NCBI RefSeq assembly: GCF_003096095.1
Contig: NZ_CP015453.1
Coordinates: forward strand, 1,240,001-1,304,000
From: Dietzia psychralcaliphila
GTDB taxonomy: Bacteria > Actinomycetota > Actinomycetes > Mycobacteriales > Mycobacteriaceae
Reading direction: 5' to 3'
Length of the DNA: 64,000 nt
Shown here: one piece after another, positions 13,766-30,197 of the stretch
How positions within the stretch are numbered: position 1 is the stretch's first letter
Layout of the letters: every line of letters starts with the position of its first letter
Position numbers and translations under genes: made by a program
Notes under the pieces: model-generated
The model's database searches: none
The model's input: only the letters and a program-made list of their open reading frames with translations
What the model was told of the DNA's origin: nothing

Positions 13766-16700
13766 GTGTCGGATTCGAACCTGACCATCGACGATCTCAA
13801 TGCGCTTCCGGAGAAGATGCGCGCGCACGCGGCCGCCAAGGCCGTGGGGATGACCAGCAAGGAGTTCCTGGCCGCCATGGCCGGAATCGGCGTGGAGGTC
13901 AGGAGCGCCCAGTCCGGCGTGACGCGCGAGGTGCTGCTCACCTGGTTCGCCAGCCGTGGGGAGGGCGGCGCCCCCGCGTCGGAGGCTGCTCCCGCCGTGG
14001 ACGACGCACCGGTGGAGAAGCCCTCCCGCACGTCCTCGGCAGAGAACGCCCCCGCCGAGAAGGCCCCCGCCAAGAAGGCCGCCGCGAAGAAGGCATCGGC
14101 CGAGAAGGCTCCGGCGAAGAAGGCTCCGGCGAAGAAGGCTGCAGCCGAGAAGCCCTCCCGCGAGACCTCGGCGGAGGAGCCCTCCCGCGAGTCGTCAGCC
14201 GAGGAGGCCCCAGCGAAGAAGGCCCCCGCCAGGAAGGCGCGCAAGGCCGCGGCGGAGAAGACGGCACCCGCCGCCGCGGACGGTCCCACCGCGGAACCCA
14301 CGACCGGAAAGAAGTCCACGTCGCAGGCTCCGGTCCGTCGACCCCTTCCGGAGATGTCGATCGTGACCGGTGAGGTGGGCACCGCGGAGCCGGGCAACCG
14401 CCGCCGGTCCACCGCGACCCCCTCGTTCTCCCCGCTGTTCCTCTCTCCCGACGAGGCCGCCGCCAAGGCCGAGCGGGAGCGCCCCGCGCGCACGAAGTCC
14501 GGTGGACCCGAGACGTCGCGCACCGGACAAACCCGGACCGGGCAAACCCGGCCGGACCAGCCGAACGCCGGGACCACGGACGAGACGGGAACCCGGGGCG
14601 ACTCCGACACCCCCGGGACGGCTGACATCCCCGGCACCGCCGACGCCCCGGAGACCACCGACGCCTCCAAGATCGCCGACGCCTCGGAGTCCACCGACAC
14701 CAACGACGACCAGAACGACAACGGTGAGGGTGGTAGCCGTCGCCGCCGGCGTGGCCGTCGCGGCCGCGGGCGTGGCCGGGGCGAGAACTTCGACGACCAG
14801 AACGGCGAGGACGACGAGAACGACGCGTCGACGGACGACTCCGATGACGCCCGCGACGACACCTCCGGTGACCGCCGGGACCAGCGTTCCGGCGGCTCCG
14901 GCGGCGCTGACCGTCGTGACGACTCCGGCTCGGCGGACACGGCCGACGGGCGGTCCGAGTCGGGGGACGAGTCCTCCGAGGACGACTCCGACGACTCCGA
15001 CGGGTCACCGTCCGGGTCGCGTCGGCGTCGCCGTCGTCGTCGTCGTGGTGGGGGTTCGGGCAACGACGACACCCAGGCCTCCGGCGACGACTCTCCCGAC
15101 ACCGAGGTCCAGGAGCAGCGCGAGCCGCGCCGTCGCCCCGCACGCGGGGGACAGAGCGCGGGCGCGGGTTCGAGCACCGGTACGTCCGCGGACGAGGTCC
15201 AGGGCATCACCGGCTCGACCCGGCTCGAGGCCAAGCGCCAGCGTCGCCGCGACGGGCGCGATGCCGGCCGCCGCCGTCAGCCCATCCTCTCCGAGTCGGA
15301 GTTCCTCGCACGCCGCGAGTCCGTCGACCGCGTGATGGTGGTCCGGGAGAAGCAGCGCGGCGACGGCAAGGGGATCATGACCCAGGTCGGCGTGCTCGAG
15401 GACAAGGTCCTGGTGGAGCACTTCGTCACCACCGAGTCCGCGCGCTCCATGGTGGGCAACGTCTACCTCGGCCGTGTGCAGAACGTGCTGCCGAGCATGG
15501 AGGCCGCGTTCGTCGACATCGGCCGCGGTCGCAACGGCGTCCTGTACGCCGGTGAGGTCAACTGGGAGGCTGCCGGGCTCGGCGGCAAGGCCCGGCGGAT
15601 CGAACAGGCGCTCAGGCCCGGTGACATGGTCCTGGTGCAGGTCACCAAGGATCCCATCGGTCAGAAGGGCGCCCGCCTGACCACGCAGATCTCGCTGGCC
15701 GGCCGATTCCTCGTGTACGTGCCCGACGGGAACTCCACCGGCATCTCCCGCAAGCTCCCCGACACCGAGCGGCGCCGGCTCAAGGCGATCCTCAAGGACG
15801 TCGTCCCCGAGGGCTCGGGCGTGATCATCCGGACCGCGGCCGAGGGGGTCAGCGAGGAGGAGATCGGCCGGGACGTCGAACGACTGGCGGCCCAGTGGGC
15901 CGAGATCGCCGAGGCCTCCGCCAAGCGGACCTCCGCCGGCGCCGGCACCCCGGTGGCCCTGTACGAGGAGCCCGACCTGCTGGTCAAGGTGGTGCGGGAC
16001 CTGTTCAACGAGGACTTCTCCTCACTGGTGATCCAGGGCGACACCTCCTGGGACACCGTTCACGACTACGTCTCGAAGGTCGCACCGGAGATGACCGAGC
16101 GCCTGGAGCGGTACGACAACCCCGACGTCGACGTGTTCGCCACCCACCGCGTGGACGAGCAGGTGGCCAAGGCGCTCGACCGCAAGGTGTGGCTGCCCTC
16201 CGGCGGCTCGCTGGTGATCGACCGCACCGAGGCCATGACGGTCATCGACGTCAACACCGGCAAGTACACCGGCTCGGGCGGCAACCTCGAGGAGACCGTC
16301 ACCAAGAACAACCTCGAGGCGGCCGAGGAGATCGTCCGCCAGCTGCGCCTGCGCGACGTGGGCGGAATGGTGATCATCGACTTCATCGACATGGTCCTCG
16401 AGGCCAACCGCGACCTGGTCCTGCGCCGACTCACCGAGGCGCTGGGTCGCGACCGCACCCGGCACCAGGTCTCCGAGGTCACCTCGCTGGGTCTGGTCCA
16501 GCTCACCCGGAAGAAGTTGGGCACGGGCCTCGTCGAGGCGTTCTCCACGCCGTGCGAGCACTGCCAGGGCCGCGGACTGATCGTGCACGCCGACCCGGTC
16601 CACACCGAGTCGCACAACGCCGACGAGCCCGGTAACCGACGTGGCCGCAAGCGCGGCGGCAAGGGTGCGGAGTCGGATCAGCCCGATACCGCGACCCCCT

Positions 16701-22541: not shown

Positions 22542-23320
22542 CCCGGGACGCCTCCCGGGCCCGTCGGGTCGTGGGCGCACACCACCCGGAGGTCCCCGCG
22601 GCGGCGCTCGGCCAGCGCCGCGAGGCGGGCGTGGGTCAGTTCCACAGCCGACGGGACCAGTGACAGGACGCGTTCCACGACCCCGATCGCCCTCGGGTGG
22701 CCGACCGACGGGTCGATCTGGCCGCGCAGGTAGAACGCGTCCCCGGCGTGCAGGACGTCTGTCTCGTCGGGATCCCCGGGGTCCCCCGGGACCAGGACCC
22801 CGGCATGCCCCACGGTGTGGCCGGGCAGATCCACCAGTGCCATCCCCTCGACCACGTGGTCCAGGGGATGCACCCGGAAGCCCTCCCACCTGTCGGTTCC
22901 GTACACGTACTCGGTGAACTCCGGTCCGTGCGACCACTGGGCGCGCCGGTAGCGACGCCGCTCGATCCAGCGCGGGGTGCGCACCGCCCACGTGAGTGCC
23001 TCGGCGGCCACGTGTACCTCCGCCCCGGGGAAGTCGGCGAGCCCGCCGATGTGGTCGAAGTCCATGTGGGTGAGCACGATGTGGCGCACCTCGCGGGGGT
23101 CGAACCCCATGGCCTCGATGCGCCGGTACGCGGTCTCGGAGGGGTCCAGGCGCGGGCGCATCGCGTGCCGCAACGGGCCCAGCCGGGCGGCGGGGTCGGC
23201 GATGTCCCGGAGCCCGATGCCGGTGTCCACCAGCACCAGCCCGGCCGGGGCCTCCACCAGCAGCACTCGGGTGGGGAGGCGTCCGGCGAACGTCCCGCAG
23301 TTCATCTGGTGGATCCGCAT
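22538..23320 (-). CDS. Metallo-beta-lactamase fold hydrolase
   Basis: A 260-residue MBL-fold enzyme, lactonase/glyoxalase II-like. The metal-binding signature HMDFDHIGG and the later DLPGHTVGHAGV and HAGDAFY ligands are all present. The substrate is unknown. The ATG at 23320 was chosen over an upstream in-frame start because the first strand (MRIHQMNCGTFAG) is family-like and because of the -10-like sequence in the adjacent palindrome. Transcribed divergently from the AAA ATPase with only 23 bases between the start codons. Confidence 0.88.
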   Translation of the reverse strand: MRIHQMNCGTFAGRLPTRVLLVEAPAGLVLVDTGIGLRDIADPAARLGPLRHAMRPRLDPSETAYRRIEAMGFDPREVRHIVLTHMDFDHIGGLADFPGAEVHVAAEALTWAVRTPRWIERRRYRRAQWSHGPEFTEYVYGTDRWEGFRVHPLDHVVEGMALVDLPGHTVGHAGVLVPGDPGDPDETDVLHAGDAFYLRGQIDPSVGHPRAIGVVERVLSLVPSAVELTHARLAALAERRRGDLRVVCAHDPTGPGGVPG

Positions 23321-23322
23321 GT

Positions 23323-23342
23323 CGGCCACGGTACCGTGGCCG
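23323..23342. promoter_or_regulatory. 20-bp perfect palindrome with back-to-back -10 boxes
   Basis: A perfect 20-base palindrome centred on GGTACC fills almost the whole gap between the MBL hydrolase and the AAA ATPase. It contains TACCGT on both strands, ending six bases before the ATPase GTG and seven bases before the hydrolase ATG. Both genes could therefore be leaderless and driven from overlapping, symmetric promoters. Confidence 0.6.
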
Positions 23343-23343
23343 C

Positions 23344-24075
23344 GTGAGTCGAGATGGAGTGCTGGACCCGCGACCACTGGTTCGTGTCGCGGTGGACCCG
23401 GGCCTCGCCGGGGCCGCCGATACCTGGCCGTACTCGGTGCCCGCGGTGGGCGATCTGGTGCGCGACGGGTTCGAGCTGGACGACCTCACCGTCCTGGTGG
23501 GGGAGAACGGCTCCGGCAAGTCCACGATCGTCGAGGCCGTGGCCATGGCGTTCGGGTTGAACGCCGAGGGCGGGTCCACGGGCGCCCGGAACGCGACGTG
23601 GGCGTCGGAGTCCCCGTTGCACGAGGCGCTGCGCCTGGTGCGCGGGGGTGGGGCGCCGCGGTGGGGCTACTTCGTGCGGGCCGAGACCATGCACGGCCTG
23701 TTCACCTACCTGCAGTCCTCCGGGCCGGGGCAGAACTTCCACGCGCGCAGTCACGGCGAGGCGTTCTGGGACCTGGTGGACTCCTCCCGGTTCTCCGGCG
23801 GCGGGCTGTTCGTGTTGGACGAGCCCGAGGCGGGACTGTCCTTCGACGCCCAGCTCCGTCTGGTCGCGCTGCTGCTCGAGCTGGCCGATCGCCGGGGTGC
23901 GCAGGTCCTCATGGCCACCCACTCGCCGATCCTGGCCTCCGTGCCGGGGGCTGTGGTGTACGAGCTGTCGGACGACGGGATGCACCGCAGCCGCTGGGAG
24001 AATCTGGCGATGGTGGACCACCACCGCCGGTATCTCGCGGCCCCCGAGCTGTATCTGCGCCATCTGCTGGAGTGA
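23344..24075 (+). CDS. AAA/ABC-type ATPase (RecF/SMC-like fold)
   Basis: A 243-residue stand-alone ATPase. Walker A GENGSGKST lies at residues 53-61, the Walker B/D-loop segment is LFVLDEPEAGLS (about 154-165), and the switch His is in MATHSPIL. The short insert between the Walker motifs lacks a long coiled coil, so it resembles the small AAA_15/AAA_21 predicted ATPases rather than SMC or RecN. It starts with GTG six bases after a -10-like box. No partner gene identifies its role; the FAD dehydrogenase follows 17 bases later. Confidence 0.85.
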   Translation: MSRDGVLDPRPLVRVAVDPGLAGAADTWPYSVPAVGDLVRDGFELDDLTVLVGENGSGKSTIVEAVAMAFGLNAEGGSTGARNATWASESPLHEALRLVRGGGAPRWGYFVRAETMHGLFTYLQSSGPGQNFHARSHGEAFWDLVDSSRFSGGGLFVLDEPEAGLSFDAQLRLVALLLELADRRGAQVLMATHSPILASVPGAVVYELSDDGMHRSRWENLAMVDHHRRYLAAPELYLRHLLE

Positions 24076-24092
24076 CCCGGCACACTGGACCC

Positions 24093-25913
24093 ATGACCGA
24101 TTCCGCGTCCCGTTCCGCCCGCACGTCCGGGGAGGCCCGGCCCGTCCACCCCGACTACCCGTCGTACGCCCCGCCGTCCACCTCGACCGCGGCCAATGCC
24201 GGGCCGCTCCCGGCACCCGAGCCCGGGTTCACGCCCGACGTCATCGTGGTGGGCCACGGCCTCGCGGGGCTGGTCGCCACCTACGAGGCGAGCCGGGCGG
24301 GCAAGAAGGTCCTGGTGGTGGACCAGGAGAACGAGAAGAACCTCGGCGGTCAGGCCTATTGGTCGCTCGGCGGCCTGTTCATGGTGGACACCCCCGAGCA
24401 GCGGCGCATCGGCGTCCATGACTCGCTGGACCTGGCGTGGCGGGACTGGCTCGGTTCGGCTGCGTTCGACCGACCCGAGGACCACTGGCCCCGGCGGTGG
24501 GCGCGGGCCTACGTGGAGTTCGCGGCGGGGGAGAAGCGCACGTATCTCAACGGGCTCGGGCTGAAGATCATCCCCACCGTCGGCTGGGCGGAGCGTGGCG
24601 GTGGGGACGTGGAGGGCCACGGCAACTCGGTCCCGCGGTTCCACGTCACGTGGGGCACCGGGCCCGAGGTCGTGCGCGTCTTCGAGGAGCCGGTGCGCAC
24701 AGCGGCAGCCGAGGGGAGGGTGCGCTTCGCGGTGCGTCACCGCGTCGACGAGATCGTGGTCGAGGACGGCCGGGCGGTCGGCGTGCGAGGTGCCACCCTC
24801 GTCCCGTGCGATCTGGACCGGGGAGTGTCCTCCCCCCGCGAGGAGACGGGCCGGTTCGAGTTCCGGGGCGGCGCGGTGCTCGTGTCCTCTGGCGGGATCG
24901 GCGGCAACCCGGACCTCGTGCGCCAGTACTGGCCGTCGGACCGGCTCGGCGAAGCGCCCAGGGATCTCATCCTGGGGGTCCCTGAACACGTCGACGGTCG
25001 CATGCTCGAGATCTCGGGGACAGCCGGGGCGAACCTCATCAACCGCGACCGGATGTGGCACTACACCGAAGGAGTCGCCAACTTCGCGCCCATCTGGCCA
25101 TCGCACGCCATCCGCATCATCCCGGGCCCGTCGACGCTCTGGTTGGACGCCACCGGCGCGCGGATGCCGGTGCCGCTGTTCCCGGGCTTCCACACCACCG
25201 CGTCCGTCGAGGCCATCCGCCGGACCGGGCACGACCACTCCTGGTTCATCCTGGACTCGGCCATCGCGGAGAAGGAGTTCGTGCTCTCGGGCTCCGAACA
25301 GAATCCGGAGATGACCGACAAGGTGGTCAAGAAGTTCCTGTCCCGCGCCAAGAAGGGACTGCCGCCGTCGGTCGGCGAGTTCGCCGAGAAGGGCGTGGAC
25401 TGGGTGGTGGCCGACTCCCTGGAGGAGTTGGTGACGGGGATGAACGAGTTGGTCCGCGAGGGCGAACCCGAGCTCGATCTGGAGAAGGTGCGCGAGTTCG
25501 TCCTGGCGATGGATGGCCAGATGGACAACCCCTTCGCCAAGGACGCGCAGGTGCAGGCCATCCACAACTCACGCCGGGTGCTCACCGACAAGCTCACCCG
25601 CATCGCCAAGCCGCACAAGCTCCTCGCGGACTCCGGCGCGGGCAATGGCTCCGCCGCCGGCTCCGGTGGCCCGCTGATCGCGGTCAAGGTGCACCTCATG
25701 ACCCGCAAGACCCTGGGCGGGATCGAGACCACGCTGGACTCCCAGTGTCTGCGCCCCGACGGCGAACCCTTCCCCGGCCTGTACGCGGCCGGTGAGGTCG
25801 CCGGCTTCGGTGGTGGAGGGGTCCACGGGTACAACTCCCTCGAGGGCACCTTCCTCGGCGGCTGCATCTTCTCGGGGATGAAGGCGGGCCGGGCGATGGC
25901 GAGGGAGGTCTGA
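24093..25913 (+). CDS. FAD-binding dehydrogenase (KstD/fumarate reductase-like)
   Basis: A 606-residue flavoprotein. The dinucleotide-binding motif is at about 50-80 (DVIVVGHGLAGLVATYEASRAGKKVLVVDQE). A C-terminal FAD/active-site segment (GLYAAGEVAGFGGGGVHGYNSLEGTFLGGCIFSG) matches the family of putative FAD-binding dehydrogenases related to 3-ketosteroid delta-1-dehydrogenase. The substrate is unknown; several relatives act on ketosteroids or organic acids. The ATG at 24093 is used; readings starting near 22977 run through the preceding ATPase in another frame. The AT-richer island begins about 15 bases after its stop. Confidence 0.87.
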   Translation: MTDSASRSARTSGEARPVHPDYPSYAPPSTSTAANAGPLPAPEPGFTPDVIVVGHGLAGLVATYEASRAGKKVLVVDQENEKNLGGQAYWSLGGLFMVDTPEQRRIGVHDSLDLAWRDWLGSAAFDRPEDHWPRRWARAYVEFAAGEKRTYLNGLGLKIIPTVGWAERGGGDVEGHGNSVPRFHVTWGTGPEVVRVFEEPVRTAAAEGRVRFAVRHRVDEIVVEDGRAVGVRGATLVPCDLDRGVSSPREETGRFEFRGGAVLVSSGGIGGNPDLVRQYWPSDRLGEAPRDLILGVPEHVDGRMLEISGTAGANLINRDRMWHYTEGVANFAPIWPSHAIRIIPGPSTLWLDATGARMPVPLFPGFHTTASVEAIRRTGHDHSWFILDSAIAEKEFVLSGSEQNPEMTDKVVKKFLSRAKKGLPPSVGEFAEKGVDWVVADSLEELVTGMNELVREGEPELDLEKVREFVLAMDGQMDNPFAKDAQVQAIHNSRRVLTDKLTRIAKPHKLLADSGAGNGSAAGSGGPLIAVKVHLMTRKTLGGIETTLDSQCLRPDGEPFPGLYAAGEVAGFGGGGVHGYNSLEGTFLGGCIFSGMKAGRAMAREV

Positions 25914-25937
25914 CCCACGCGAACTGCAGGAGCGCTC

Positions 25938-26606
25938 TCATCGCGACAATTCGGCAGACGTCATCTCCTCGACTAAGTCTTCTAGGAGACTAACTGCTGG
26001 TTTTCCGGCGCATGCGAAAGCGATTTTGGAAAGGGAGCCGCTGAAGTAGTAACCCGCGCGGGGATTGAATATGGTCAGAACTTTGGTTGAACCTCCAACA
26101 GAGTATACAAGCGCGGCGTAGGCGAGTGCCTGGCGGAAATCGATACTGCGGAATAGGCGGCGTACCGACTTGACTTCAATAATTTCCGACTGGCGAATGA
26201 TGTCGATGTGGCCGGACCTCACCACTCCGCAACCCGGGACTTGATGCAGGAAGTCCACCGGGGATCCCGAACCCAGAAAATTCTGGACTCCGGTACACAG
26301 CGCAAGCACCTCCTTCCCCTCTTGTTCGGAGAGCGGTGCTCTTGCGCTTTCTCCTCCCGGAAGCGCAGTAACAAATTTTCGGGCTGCGTCCTCCGCTCGC
26401 GGTAGCTCCAACGGTTGTCCGCCAAGACTAGCGAGACGAAAAGCTGCTTCTGCCACCAGCGCTGCGCGTTCAGGTTCGCAATGCTGTTCAACAGAGTTCC
26501 CAGAGAAGCGCAGATTTCGATTCGCCCAACGAGAAAACTCTGGAAGGGTCGGTGTGCATTTGTGCCACGTTGAATCCAAGTTTACAAATTGACCGATGCT
26601 TATCAT
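25938..26606 (-). CDS. PD-(D/E)XK-like protein partnered with a reverse transcriptase
   Basis: A 222-residue protein of no recognised named family. Residues 130-165 look like a PD-(D/E)XK nuclease core: Asp135 in SGHIDII, then EVK at 144-146 in SEIIEVKSVRR, and a helix FRQALAYAAL with Gln159 and Tyr163 in the usual position. The N-terminal 120 residues are helical and without known motifs. The ATG at 26606 overlaps the reverse transcriptase stop by four bases (ATGA); an earlier ATG at 26705 would overlap by 103 bases and is less likely. Composition is AT-rich compared with the flanks. Probably the effector or accessory nuclease of the RT system. The nuclease assignment is inferred from motif spacing only. 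Confidence 0.7.
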   Translation of the reverse strand: MISIGQFVNLDSTWHKCTPTLPEFSRWANRNLRFSGNSVEQHCEPERAALVAEAAFRLASLGGQPLELPRAEDAARKFVTALPGGESARAPLSEQEGKEVLALCTGVQNFLGSGSPVDFLHQVPGCGVVRSGHIDIIRQSEIIEVKSVRRLFRSIDFRQALAYAALVYSVGGSTKVLTIFNPRAGYYFSGSLSKIAFACAGKPAVSLLEDLVEEMTSAELSR

Positions 26607-28243
26607 AGTGGCACGTCCCAATTCGGGCGGGATACACGACCAGAGAACCAGTCCCTGAAAATGAGCTCGGGTTTCGGGAGTTTGCGGACGGTTGGCCTGC
26701 GCCAATGATCGCCTTCGTCTCCCAGGCGATATGACGAGATAAGAAATGCCCTCTTAACCCAAGGCCTATAGCCCGCATAGTAGTTCTTCTGATCGCTTAG
26801 CCAGTAGGTTGCTCCCCAGTTGGCCATAATTAGGATAATGTCTCTTTGGATTGTTGGCGAAGGCGATCCAGCATAGCCGTGAGCAGAATTGAACAGGGAG
26901 ACGAGGAGCTCTTCGTTCTCAACTGAGTGGCGGGTGGCGAGTGTGCGAATCATGTATTGTAGGTTGAGGTCGACCTGCGCCGAATGATGCCTGTTCTGAA
27001 TCAGCCCCCGAATGCTCTCGTGAATCCTCTCAACTGCGGAATCATCTTGGAAGTTTTCTAACGCTGATCTTGTGGCGATTAAGACTTGTGGGACCACCGG
27101 CCAGAGGTTTCCGATGTTCTCAATCATTGACTCGATGGCAGTAATTCGTGGAGCCTTATCCATGAATTTCACCGCTTGCACCAAACGTTTAGTCGTCGCT
27201 GTGTGTATACGGTCTTTATTGAACTCTGCATGGAGGAGGCTCAAGACATCAAATTTTGCAATTTGTTCCTTGGTTGTCTCAAAATCGTGTTCGGCAGTAT
27301 CGGAATAGGGGTCATAGTTTATTTGTATTCCCAGGAAGGCTTCTGCGCTTCCGGGGATAGGGTCGGCAGGGTCGAGAGTTGACAGGTACTCGGCGGATTT
27401 CTGCACTCGGGTCTTGTTCTTCTGAAGCGACAGTCCCTCGTTACGAAGGAGCTTCTCGGATAGGAACCCTATGGTTTGATATGCGGATTCTAGGTCGTCG
27501 ACAAAAAATCTGTAGTCGTCGACGTAGCGGCAGAATTCTCCTATGCTCGGATTTCTCGCTAGTAGTAGATCGGTCCTTGATAAAACCAGTTCGGCGAGTA
27601 CTCGTGCGGCTGCCCCACCGACGGGCAAGCCGTACGAGGTGCCATTGGACAGGTTTCCCAAGATGGCCATTATCTGTTTTGTTCGAACCCCGTCGGGGTC
27701 TGCAACTCGGAGAGCGTTCTCTATTCGATGATGATAAATCCTCGAGTAGAAATCGGCGATGTCGACAGACACGACATACTTGTGGTCTTCCGAAAGGTTG
27801 CGGCATTGTTCTTGGAACTGCCTCCATCCGCCTTCGGCGAAAATTCTGTCGTCAGTAGTTGTGAGTCGATAGGAGAAGACCCGCTTTGCGTCAACAGGCA
27901 ATCGCATTTGCTCAATGGTGGGACTTAGTTCAAGAACGCAGGCCAGAAAATATGCGTTCCAAACTGGATCGATTTGTGTGGCCCAACGGAATCCTGCATA
28001 GCCTGTTGGGGATAGCGTCGAGAAGTGCTCAACCGGGTAGTCGGTTATAGTTTGTTCGAAATCAACGGACATTTCGACCAGTAACTCAGCAAAGCCTTCG
28101 GGATCCTCTCGGATGGCGTTCAATTCGAAAGGGAATGGAAATATGTCGGTGTCTCCGAAAATGACGACGTTCTGTAAAGCGCGTTCAGCTGCATGCTTGG
28201 AGAGTTTCACTTGCTCAACTTTCTTGCCGGATGCGGTCGGCAC
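26603..28243 (-). CDS. Reverse transcriptase, putative defence-associated (UG/Abi/DRT-like)
   Basis: A 546-residue RNA-directed DNA polymerase. Motif A is VVSVDIADFYSRI (catalytic Asp161), the motif B-like segment is GLPVGGAAARVLAEL (205-219), and the catalytic box is YVDD at 240-243 in CRYVDDYRFF. A motif D/E-like stretch (LSLQKNKTRVQ) follows. The last 220 residues are helical without a recognised domain (WVKRAFLISSYRLGDEG near the end). There is no group II intron maturase X/HNH domain and no retron-type YADD. GTG start at 28243 with AGGAAA upstream. The gene is much more AT-rich than its surroundings, which implies horizontal transfer, and it is coupled to a PD-(D/E)XK-like gene. The best fit is the unknown-group/Abi-type antiviral reverse transcriptases; the subgroup cannot be assigned without a tree. 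Confidence 0.88.
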   Translation of the reverse strand: MPTASGKKVEQVKLSKHAAERALQNVVIFGDTDIFPFPFELNAIREDPEGFAELLVEMSVDFEQTITDYPVEHFSTLSPTGYAGFRWATQIDPVWNAYFLACVLELSPTIEQMRLPVDAKRVFSYRLTTTDDRIFAEGGWRQFQEQCRNLSEDHKYVVSVDIADFYSRIYHHRIENALRVADPDGVRTKQIMAILGNLSNGTSYGLPVGGAAARVLAELVLSRTDLLLARNPSIGEFCRYVDDYRFFVDDLESAYQTIGFLSEKLLRNEGLSLQKNKTRVQKSAEYLSTLDPADPIPGSAEAFLGIQINYDPYSDTAEHDFETTKEQIAKFDVLSLLHAEFNKDRIHTATTKRLVQAVKFMDKAPRITAIESMIENIGNLWPVVPQVLIATRSALENFQDDSAVERIHESIRGLIQNRHHSAQVDLNLQYMIRTLATRHSVENEELLVSLFNSAHGYAGSPSPTIQRDIILIMANWGATYWLSDQKNYYAGYRPWVKRAFLISSYRLGDEGDHWRRPTVRKLPKPELIFRDWFSGRVSRPNWDVPL

Positions 28244-28274
28244 GGGGTTTCCTAGAGGTTAGCCCTCGGGTGCG

Positions 28275-28880
28275 ATGGCAGGGACAAGACGGCTATTGCT
28301 CCCGCTAATCGCAAGTGGCGAGCAGACTCTGGAGCCGTTCAGCTACTCGGTCGTGTACTTCGCCGTCGTTGTCATCTATTTCACCTACGCCGCGGACGTC
28401 CTCGGCGGCACCGACCTGCCGGCGATCGCGGTCTCGGTGGTCTACGTCCTGATCGGCGCCTGCGGTCTGGTGGCGCTGGCCACCGGCGCCATGGCGGGGC
28501 GGTGGGGCAGCAGTCGGGTCGCCGCGATGTGCCTGGTGATCGTGGCCCTGGCGTTGGCGCTGCTGGGCGTAGCCGGCGACTCCATTGTCACAACTGTGAT
28601 CTCGGCAGGCGTCTTCGGCGTGGGGTACATGGCGGGCTCGGCGGTGTTGGCGGTGTGGACCGCCGAGCTGGTCCCCGATCGCGCGGGAGCGGCATTCACG
28701 GCGTGCCTGGTGGTCGGAGCGGTGAGTTCAGTCATCGCGCCGGCCCTCGCCGGGGCCGTGATCCCGGCCCTGGGCCTCGGTGCGCTGCTCCTGACGAGCG
28801 CCGCGGTCTCACTGGTCATCGGAGTGGGGCTGGTACTGCTCGGCGGAACCCGGGGGAGCGCCACCGCTCTCGTCGCCTGA
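28275..28880 (+). pseudogene. MFS transporter remnant, C-terminal half
   Basis: A 201-residue hydrophobic reading frame with about six predicted membrane helices, resembling the second half of a 12-helix major facilitator (VVYVLIGACGLVALATGAMAGRWG is the inter-helix loop; ELVPDRAGAAFT and the following helices are typical). The first 15 residues (MAGTRRLLLPLIASG) do not look like a transporter start. The first half is absent: the left neighbour is the AT-rich RT island. The simplest explanation is that island insertion removed the 5' part. A functional six-helix protein is the less likely alternative. Confidence 0.6.
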
Positions 28881-28886
28881 GCACGT

Positions 28887-28950
28887 CGTCCCCGAATCCT
28901 CGGCCCCGGTGGAACCACGGCCGCGGTGGAACAACGGCGTCCCCGAATCC
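28887..28950. repeat. Short direct repeats before the P450 gene
   Basis: A 13-base block CGTCCCCGAATCC occurs at 28887-28899 and again at 28938-28950. Between them lie two near-identical GGTGGAAC-containing units. The role is unknown; local duplication is likely. Confidence 0.6.
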
Positions 28951-29021
28951 ACTGTGTCTCTGAAAACGCCGTGTCCCTGAAACCACCGTGCGGCACGAGC
29001 TCGTGCGCGAGGGTGGCAGGT

Positions 29022-30197
29022 ATGCAGAGCGCGGGCGACGTCATGGACCTCCTCGACCCGTCACGTGTGTCGCCGGGGATCGAACGGATCGGGGACTCGT
29101 CGTTCTTCGCCGTCCGGTCCTGGGACCTCATGGTGGAGGCGACGGGCCGGGTCGAGGACTTCTCGTCCAACCTCACCGCGACGATGGTCGTGGGGCCGGA
29201 CGGGGAGGTGACCGAATTCCCCGTCGCCGAACTGGGCTCCCCAGTGCACGTGTTGGCCACCGCGGACGGGGAGGTCCACCGGGCCCACCGGAAGTTGGTC
29301 ATGCCGTCGATCTCCCCGCGCAAGCTCCGGGCCTGGCGGCCCTTCATCGACGATCGGCTACGTGAACTCTGGTCGGAGCGCTGCCGGGACGGGGGCATCG
29401 ACTGGGTCAAGGACATCGCCGAACGCCTCCCGGCCTCGGTCGTCGCGAAGCTCATGGGGCTGCCCCAGCAGGACGGGGACCGGCTGTGTGAATGGGCGTT
29501 CGCCAGTACGCGGATGCTGGACGGGATGGTCTCGGCCGACGAGCTCGACGACTCGGTCCGATCGGCCGGGGAGCTGATCGAGTACCTCTCCGGCACGCTC
29601 ACAGAAGCGCGGGCCACTCGACCGGCCTCGGTGCTCGGAGACCTCGCGCGTCTGGTCGACGACGCCGACTTGACCCACGAGGTCGCGGTGCAGGTCCTGG
29701 TCCAGCTGGTGGCGGCCGGGATCGAGTCGACTGTAGGACATCTGGGTTCGCTGGTCTGGCGCCTGGGGCAGCACCCGGAATGCCTGGACACACTGCGGTC
29801 GGACCCCGCCGCCCGCCCGCTCTTCATCGAGGAGACCCTGAGGCTGGAGGCGCCGTTCCGTGGGCACTACCGACACGTCACCAGGGACACCGAACTCGGC
29901 GGGGTCGGACTCGCGGCGGGCACGCGTCTGTTCCTGCTCTGGGGTAGCGCCAACCGGGATGACCGACAGTTCAGCCGACCGGGTCAGTTCATGCCTGACC
30001 GGGGGGAGGGGTCGCACCTGTCGTTCGGGCGCGGGATCCACTTCTGCGTGGGGGCGGCGCTCGCGCGGCTGGAGTCGCTCGCCGCACTCGACTTCCTCCT
30101 GGGCCTCGACGCGGTCCCCGGGATCGACGCCTCCCGGGCCGAGTGGCACCAGAGTCTGCTGGTCCGTCGGCTCCAGTCACTGCGCATCACCGTGTGA
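29022..30197 (+). CDS. Cytochrome P450
   Basis: A 391-residue P450 monooxygenase. The I-helix oxygen-binding segment is VAAGIESTVG, the K-helix ExxR is EETLR, and the heme loop FGRGIHFCVGAALARLE has its Cys ligand at residue 342. The ATG at 29022 has GGCAGG a few bases upstream; an in-frame start at 28926 adds 32 residues unlike P450 N-termini. Soluble, bacterial class I type, so it needs a ferredoxin and a reductase, neither of which is encoded nearby. The substrate is unknown. Confidence 0.9.
   Translation: MQSAGDVMDLLDPSRVSPGIERIGDSSFFAVRSWDLMVEATGRVEDFSSNLTATMVVGPDGEVTEFPVAELGSPVHVLATADGEVHRAHRKLVMPSISPRKLRAWRPFIDDRLRELWSERCRDGGIDWVKDIAERLPASVVAKLMGLPQQDGDRLCEWAFASTRMLDGMVSADELDDSVRSAGELIEYLSGTLTEARATRPASVLGDLARLVDDADLTHEVAVQVLVQLVAAGIESTVGHLGSLVWRLGQHPECLDTLRSDPAARPLFIEETLRLEAPFRGHYRHVTRDTELGGVGLAAGTRLFLLWGSANRDDRQFSRPGQFMPDRGEGSHLSFGRGIHFCVGAALARLESLAALDFLLGLDAVPGIDASRAEWHQSLLVRRLQSLRITV

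Follow-up and report, generated by a model that had tools for sequence, protein, structure and literature searches.

What is the pair of overlapping genes on the minus strand of this Dietzia psychralcaliphila chromosome, one encoding a reverse transcriptase (RT) and the other a nuclease-like protein, and what might the two proteins do together? By the window we mean the whole stretch of 64,000 nucleotides that was analysed. We have found that, judged by its profile matches, the pair is an operon of a known type, DRT8, which we take to be group UG7: a Drt8 profile match and an adjoining PD-(D/E)XK gene are both present. The RT matches the PADLOC Drt8 model with 500.2 bits (E 2.3e-150, residues 13-534), the next-best PADLOC model being UG21 (93.2 bits, E 4e-27), and the partner matches the PADLOC model RTasPDDEXK with an E value of 7.2e-47, in each case over almost the full length of the protein. 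Because both frames match named profiles (rounded, at E 2e-150 and 7e-47) the two-gene pair is not a product of chance, and because both profiles are DRT8 models the operon is assigned to that type. The sole Pfam match of the RT is RVT_1 (37.8 bits, cut-off 29.6). An earlier note, made from the letters of the DNA, had called the system one of unassigned type and possibly an undescribed DRT variant. The PADLOC run replaces the first description with Drt8 plus RTasPDDEXK, and the second is rejected, since each protein has a DRT8 model as its match; this layout of two genes is that described for DRT8, to which PMC12596737 ascribes a PD-(D/E)XK domain. PMC10952713 lists a SLOG/PNP protein, Cap17, for DRT8 as well, and in Pseudomonas syringae DRT8 is reported to be carried in part by prophages (PMC13182921).

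Two further identities for the RT were rejected. The group II intron model TIGR04416 gives 53.9 bits against a cut-off of 300, and the retron models St85, Ec67 and TIR retron give 29.2, 11.7 and 23.5 bits against cut-offs of 235, 450 and 600, respectively. Indeed, the ten NCBIfam models that match the window RT (Drt2 to Drt5, retrons, group II maturase and AbiA) all do so far below their cut-offs, in agreement with the earlier reading of an RT that lacks intron maturase or retron-type features. Much else in that reading stands: a foreign module that joins a defence-type (UG/Abi) RT to a nuclease-like partner; a 546-residue RT in which D161, GLPVGGAAAR (residues 205-214) and YVDD (240-243) are all found, to which we add the strand; and a 222-residue partner, joined to the RT by ATGA, with a PD-(D/E)XK core, which we place at D135, E144-V-K146 and Q159-x3-Y163. 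Even its hand counts of G+C are exact (22 of 60 bases at 27241-27300 and 42 of 60 at 25801-25860).

That the pair is foreign, as had been proposed, is borne out by composition (52.3% G+C at 25916-28341, against 70.6% in the rest of the window) and by comparison with congeners. Two of these, G002 and G013, are homologous to the window up to 25915 and then again from 28344 (G002) or 28342 (G013), and the roughly 2.43 kb of foreign DNA takes the place of 666 bp and 646 bp, respectively. In both congeners a longer, intact MFS transporter frame directly follows the FAD-binding gene. The part of the FAD-binding gene at 24900-25900 is matched in 22 of 22 congeners and in the host's own genome (23 genomes searched); the match covers at least 992 of 1001 bases in 21 of the 22 congeners and is short in G005, a genome that is 64% complete. 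None of the 22 congeners has a full-length Drt8 match, G016 having one short and weak match. The host genome contains a single RVT_1 match and the foreign segment in one copy. The DRT8 operon is thus a horizontal acquisition. Its noncoding DNA amounts to about 98 bases before the RT start and 22 after the partner stop, and no convincing terminal repeats of the foreign segment were seen (Table 1). We note that the insertion removed some 210-220 codons from the 5' part of the MFS transporter gene, the remnant frame having its start inside the foreign DNA or at its border and native homology beginning at about 28342. Elsewhere in the window, positions 14001-15000 stand out by an AT skew of 0.43, their G+C content being ordinary.

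Table 1. Positions, within the window, of the operon, its motifs and the flanking genes.
Feature	Coordinates	Strand	Remarks
FAD-binding oxidoreductase gene, ends at left junction	22977..25913	+	Pfam FAD_binding_2
Foreign segment, ~2.43 kb	25916..28341	.	Homology break against two congeners; 52.3% G+C
PD-(D/E)XK partner nuclease (RTasPDDEXK)	25938..26606	-	ATG start, 222 aa
Partner active site D135, E144-V-K146, Q159-x3-Y163	26118..26204	-	
ATGA, RT stop/partner start overlap	26603..26606	-	Probable translational coupling
Drt8 reverse transcriptase (RT)	26603..28243	-	GTG start, 546 aa
DPYS motif, RT residues 311-314, candidate priming Tyr313	27302..27313	-	
YVDD catalytic motif, RT residues 240-243	27515..27526	-	
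MFS transporter gene remnant, 5' part lost	28275..28880	+	Pfam MFS_1 28.0 bits, below cut-off 33.4

The predicted structure of the RT suggests the company in which it belongs. In the AF2 model (pLDDT 90.2) the RT core is followed by a C-terminal helical (alphaRep) domain, with predicted helices at 317-534 and a pLDDT of at least 84 in each block from 321 onwards. When the full-length model was compared by Foldseek, the 20 best rows were DRT6, Abi-P2, AbiK, UG15/DRT4 and AbiA (rmsd 8-16 Å, TM-scores 0.45-0.57, identity 12-16%), so that the modelled fold resembles that of the Abi/DRT4/DRT6 polymerases, with which the window RT shares a predicted palm and fingers as well as the helical domain. 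DRT4 and DRT6 belong to class 1. Class 1 enzymes studied so far synthesize DNA without a template and some of them are protein-primed (PMC13174585). For two relatives the priming residues have been named: in AbiK it is Tyr44, within a loop at the N-terminus (PMC9508834), and in AbiA Tyr298/Tyr303, within a flexible loop, residues 290-310, between the RT and helical domains (PMC11077055). The linker at about 291-316 that joins the palm to the helical domain in the window RT has the lowest model confidence of the protein bar its first ten residues (pLDDT 65-76 over 291-320), and within it lies a D-P-Y-S motif of which the Asp, the Pro and Tyr313 are each present in 82 of 82 aligned RTs. We propose Tyr313 as a primer because this invariant DPY sits in a low-confidence linker equivalent to the priming loop of AbiA; by that analogy Tyr313 is perhaps the DNA-priming residue. 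Against this choice, equal conservation is seen elsewhere, at Tyr125 (81 of 82 RTs) and Tyr166 (82 of 82), which presumably lie within RT core motifs; AbiK primes near its N-terminus; and a tyrosine also stands at the aligned place in L025, an RT without the nuclease.

The partner is predicted to be a nuclease of the Cas4/RecB type, which it resembles in its D and E-x-K core with Q-x3-Y (85 of 85 homologues) and in the fold of its AF2 model (pLDDT 96.6). The fold matches are to ACE1/Cas4, MGME1, AdnA and AddAB, that to ACE1 having an rmsd of 10.2 Å and a TM-score of 0.41. Compared with ACE1 (an Argonaute-associated Cas4 family protein), MGME1 and the AdnA/AddAB nuclease domains, the partner has 12-15% identity and is without a helicase part. 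These matches include enzymes that act on DNA ends and on single-stranded DNA (ssDNA). In sequence searches the PDB gave nothing better than E 0.36 for the partner, and Pfam nothing better than E 0.0057 for any of 42 members of its family. At L010, L011 and L015, which come from genomes of the host's order or class, parts of open frames of more than 800 residues match RTasPDDEXK weakly; these may be larger proteins that share the nuclease domain. One DRT8 partner (L024:7622-8374) also matches PADLOC PDC-S61 (E 2.6e-6), a hint, at the level of profiles, of a nuclease family common to DRT8 and this candidate defence system.

How might such an RT and such a nuclease defend a cell? We propose that the RT would act as an Abi/DRT4-like polymerase making ssDNA without a template, that this DNA would be covalently primed on the enzyme's own Tyr313, in the linker between the palm and the helical domain, and that in healthy cells the Cas4/RecB-like partner would trim or destroy the ssDNA. 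Phage infection, for example through phage nuclease inhibitors or ssDNA-binding proteins, would tip the balance, whereupon DNA would accumulate and the infected cell would stop growing. That the window holds a horizontally acquired DRT8 anti-phage operon of this kind, with untemplated, Tyr313-primed ssDNA synthesis restrained by the partner nuclease until infection, is a proposal that we think about evenly balanced between right and wrong. It has parallels in the removal of the DRT3 product by RecBCD until phage Gam blocks RecBCD, and in the restraint of the DRT9 product by ExoI (PMC13174585). Since DRT3 and DRT9 rely on host nucleases, restraint by an encoded nuclease would be an analogy to these systems.

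The same operon anatomy and pairing also fit the converse arrangement, in which the RT would make DNA as a sensor or an activator, and this DNA would either keep the PD-(D/E)XK protein inactive or switch it on, the latter being the effector that cuts phage or host DNA. There is a precedent for an RT-controlled effector in DRT1, whose DNA synthesis activates a nitrilase effector domain (PMC13275509). We consider this arrangement, the main rival, possible but on balance unlikely; the presence of DNA-end and ssDNA enzymes among the fold matches, and a 222-residue partner model without an obvious separate recognition domain, weigh against it without being decisive.

Both the proposed restraint and its alternatives suppose that the two genes belong together. 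The earlier note had made its reading depend on the partner being conserved beside related RTs, and the partner gene is indeed kept there. Four RTs with the nuclease served as seeds for a scan of 84,980 species genomes, which gave 153 relatives; the best 80 were kept, and relatives were required to fit either of two peptide patterns drawn from these seeds. The nuclease gene lies directly downstream of the RT, on the same strand, in all of these best 80 of 153, a figure that leans towards nuclease-bearing RTs because of how the seeds and relatives were chosen. It also directly follows the RT in G773, a genome of the host's order, in 3 of 6 plasmid loci (6 taken of 15 matching plasmid records) and in 7 of 7 viral-contig loci, among which equal scores make two sets look like near-copies. 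The viral loci came from an alignment-based scan, a single-sequence scan having given no matches. DRT8-like loci bear at least 10 phylum labels, single ones of which may be wrong since many loci are metagenome bins. In the RT tree the window RT groups with six named actinobacterial RTs and that of G773 (SH-aLRT 100). The nearest relative found is a Nonomuraea locus, L031, with 54% identity in the RT and 33% in the partner, a divergence that is, on these sequences, ordinary within the DRT8 group.

The catalytic residues are conserved throughout: Asp161, Asp242 and Asp243 in 82 of 82 RTs, and partner Asp135, Glu144, Lys146, Asp156, Gln159 and Tyr163 in 85 of 85 homologues (partner residue numbers in the homologue alignment are 33 higher than in the window protein). 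RT and partner distances are correlated (r 0.85 over 82 loci), and none of 2000 permutations gave a value as high. Near-constant pairing and co-divergence would be expected if the partner were a maturation enzyme that releases the covalent DNA from the RT or shortens it to a defined functional product, both activities then being needed for defence, and the 4-base stop/start overlap, which 77 of 85 homologous pairs can have, suggests that the two proteins assemble together. Restraint by the partner carries the same expectation for the sequences, however, and we regard a role in maturation as improbable. Less probable still is a decayed or passive insertion without function in the host; the segment is in single copy, foreign in composition and absent, as a full-length Drt8 match, from the 22 congeners, and at RT position 321 it has F in place of the Y found in 80 of 82 RTs, but both frames are open, no invariant catalytic residue is lost and the genes still overlap by ATGA.

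In three loci (L046, L061 and L104) the RT frame is split in two and the nuclease frame is intact, and the reverse is seen in none of 85 pairs. The RT counts (82 rows), the tree and the co-divergence test exclude these loci, and the partner counts (85 rows) include them. The split RTs may be due to decay or to sequencing error. Loss of the RT with the nuclease retained would suit restraint of the former by the latter; with three events, and an RT about 2.4 times as long as its partner, it proves nothing.

Three distant plasmid RTs (L025, L028 and L029), whose E values on the Drt8 model range from 1e-122 to 1e-160, have no nuclease gene within about 5 kb. That of L025 outscores the window RT on this model (533.7 against 500.2 bits). 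DPY is absent from all three, L025 having NPY at the aligned place, and their placement in the tree is unsure owing to very long branches. The PADLOC Drt8 model may thus join two different systems, one of them, represented by these three RTs, without the nuclease and the DPY motif. We also note that on an Aminobacter plasmid (L028:5995-9680) the nuclease-less Drt8-like RT directly precedes a match to the PADLOC RT-DUF3800 VII-A1 retron model.

We see no sign of a further component shared by these loci. In 81 neighbour frames, hand-picked by size from 150 nearest-neighbour frames that were called mechanically and may in part not be genes, there is no conserved third gene: the best Pfam family at E 1e-10, phage integrase, occurs in 4 of the 81, and no PADLOC model at E 1e-10 occurs in more than 2, single matches including other DRT-associated helicase models. 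An upstream noncoding RNA (ncRNA) likewise found no support from noncoding comparison, Rfam or leader folding, a comparison made without a positive control (DRT2 at E 1e-20 was found in 1 of 396 host-phylum genomes, and under the family cut-off). When 400-base stretches beside the RT were compared at 81 loci, one locus of 82 being too short, 1 of 3240 pairs shared similar DNA on the upstream side and 3 of 3240 on the downstream side; for coding stretches of 400 bases at 82 loci the figure was 1738 of 3321. The noncoding stretches can enter neighbouring genes and, as RT starts were set by alignment, the noncoding border is approximate. Rfam gave no match at E<=1 for 25000-29500, and hence no sign of a retron msr/msd RNA beside the RT, although some retrons are missing from Rfam. 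The leader, taken together with 54 coding bases, folds no better than shuffled sequences (z -0.56). DNA similarity can miss a structured RNA.

Set beside known systems, the window operon has the gene order and strand of its DRT8 relatives and the overlap found in most of them; it is well-formed, and as a type it is ordinary, DRT8 being already named. DRT4 and DRT6 are described as single-gene systems (PMC13213688), whereas the window operon has two genes. DRT3 and DRT9 use an ncRNA, on which DRT2 and DRT10 also depend, and host nucleases, whereas DRT8 has a nuclease gene of its own and showed no conserved noncoding DNA in the comparison above; nuclease control of RT-made DNA is theirs by description (PMC13174585) and would be DRT8's by extension. 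The mechanism of DRT8 is called unestablished in two open-licence papers, PMC13213688 and PMC13314766, and one may be in print elsewhere. The window is useful here because the acquired unit is almost bare, with two frames and about 120 noncoding bases, and the comparison offers handles on the mechanism: it singles out a tyrosine as candidate primer, places the partner in a nuclease family and hints that two genes may be enough. Tentatively, and thinking it rather more apt to be wrong than right, we suggest that DRT8 as a type might be a self-contained poison-antidote system, in which an untemplated, Tyr313-primed polymerase is translationally coupled to its own Cas4-like nuclease that destroys the product. 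If so, DRT8 would act as an inbuilt guard, set off by phages that inhibit the nucleases which break down DNA, unlike DRT3 and DRT9, where this role falls to nucleases of the host.
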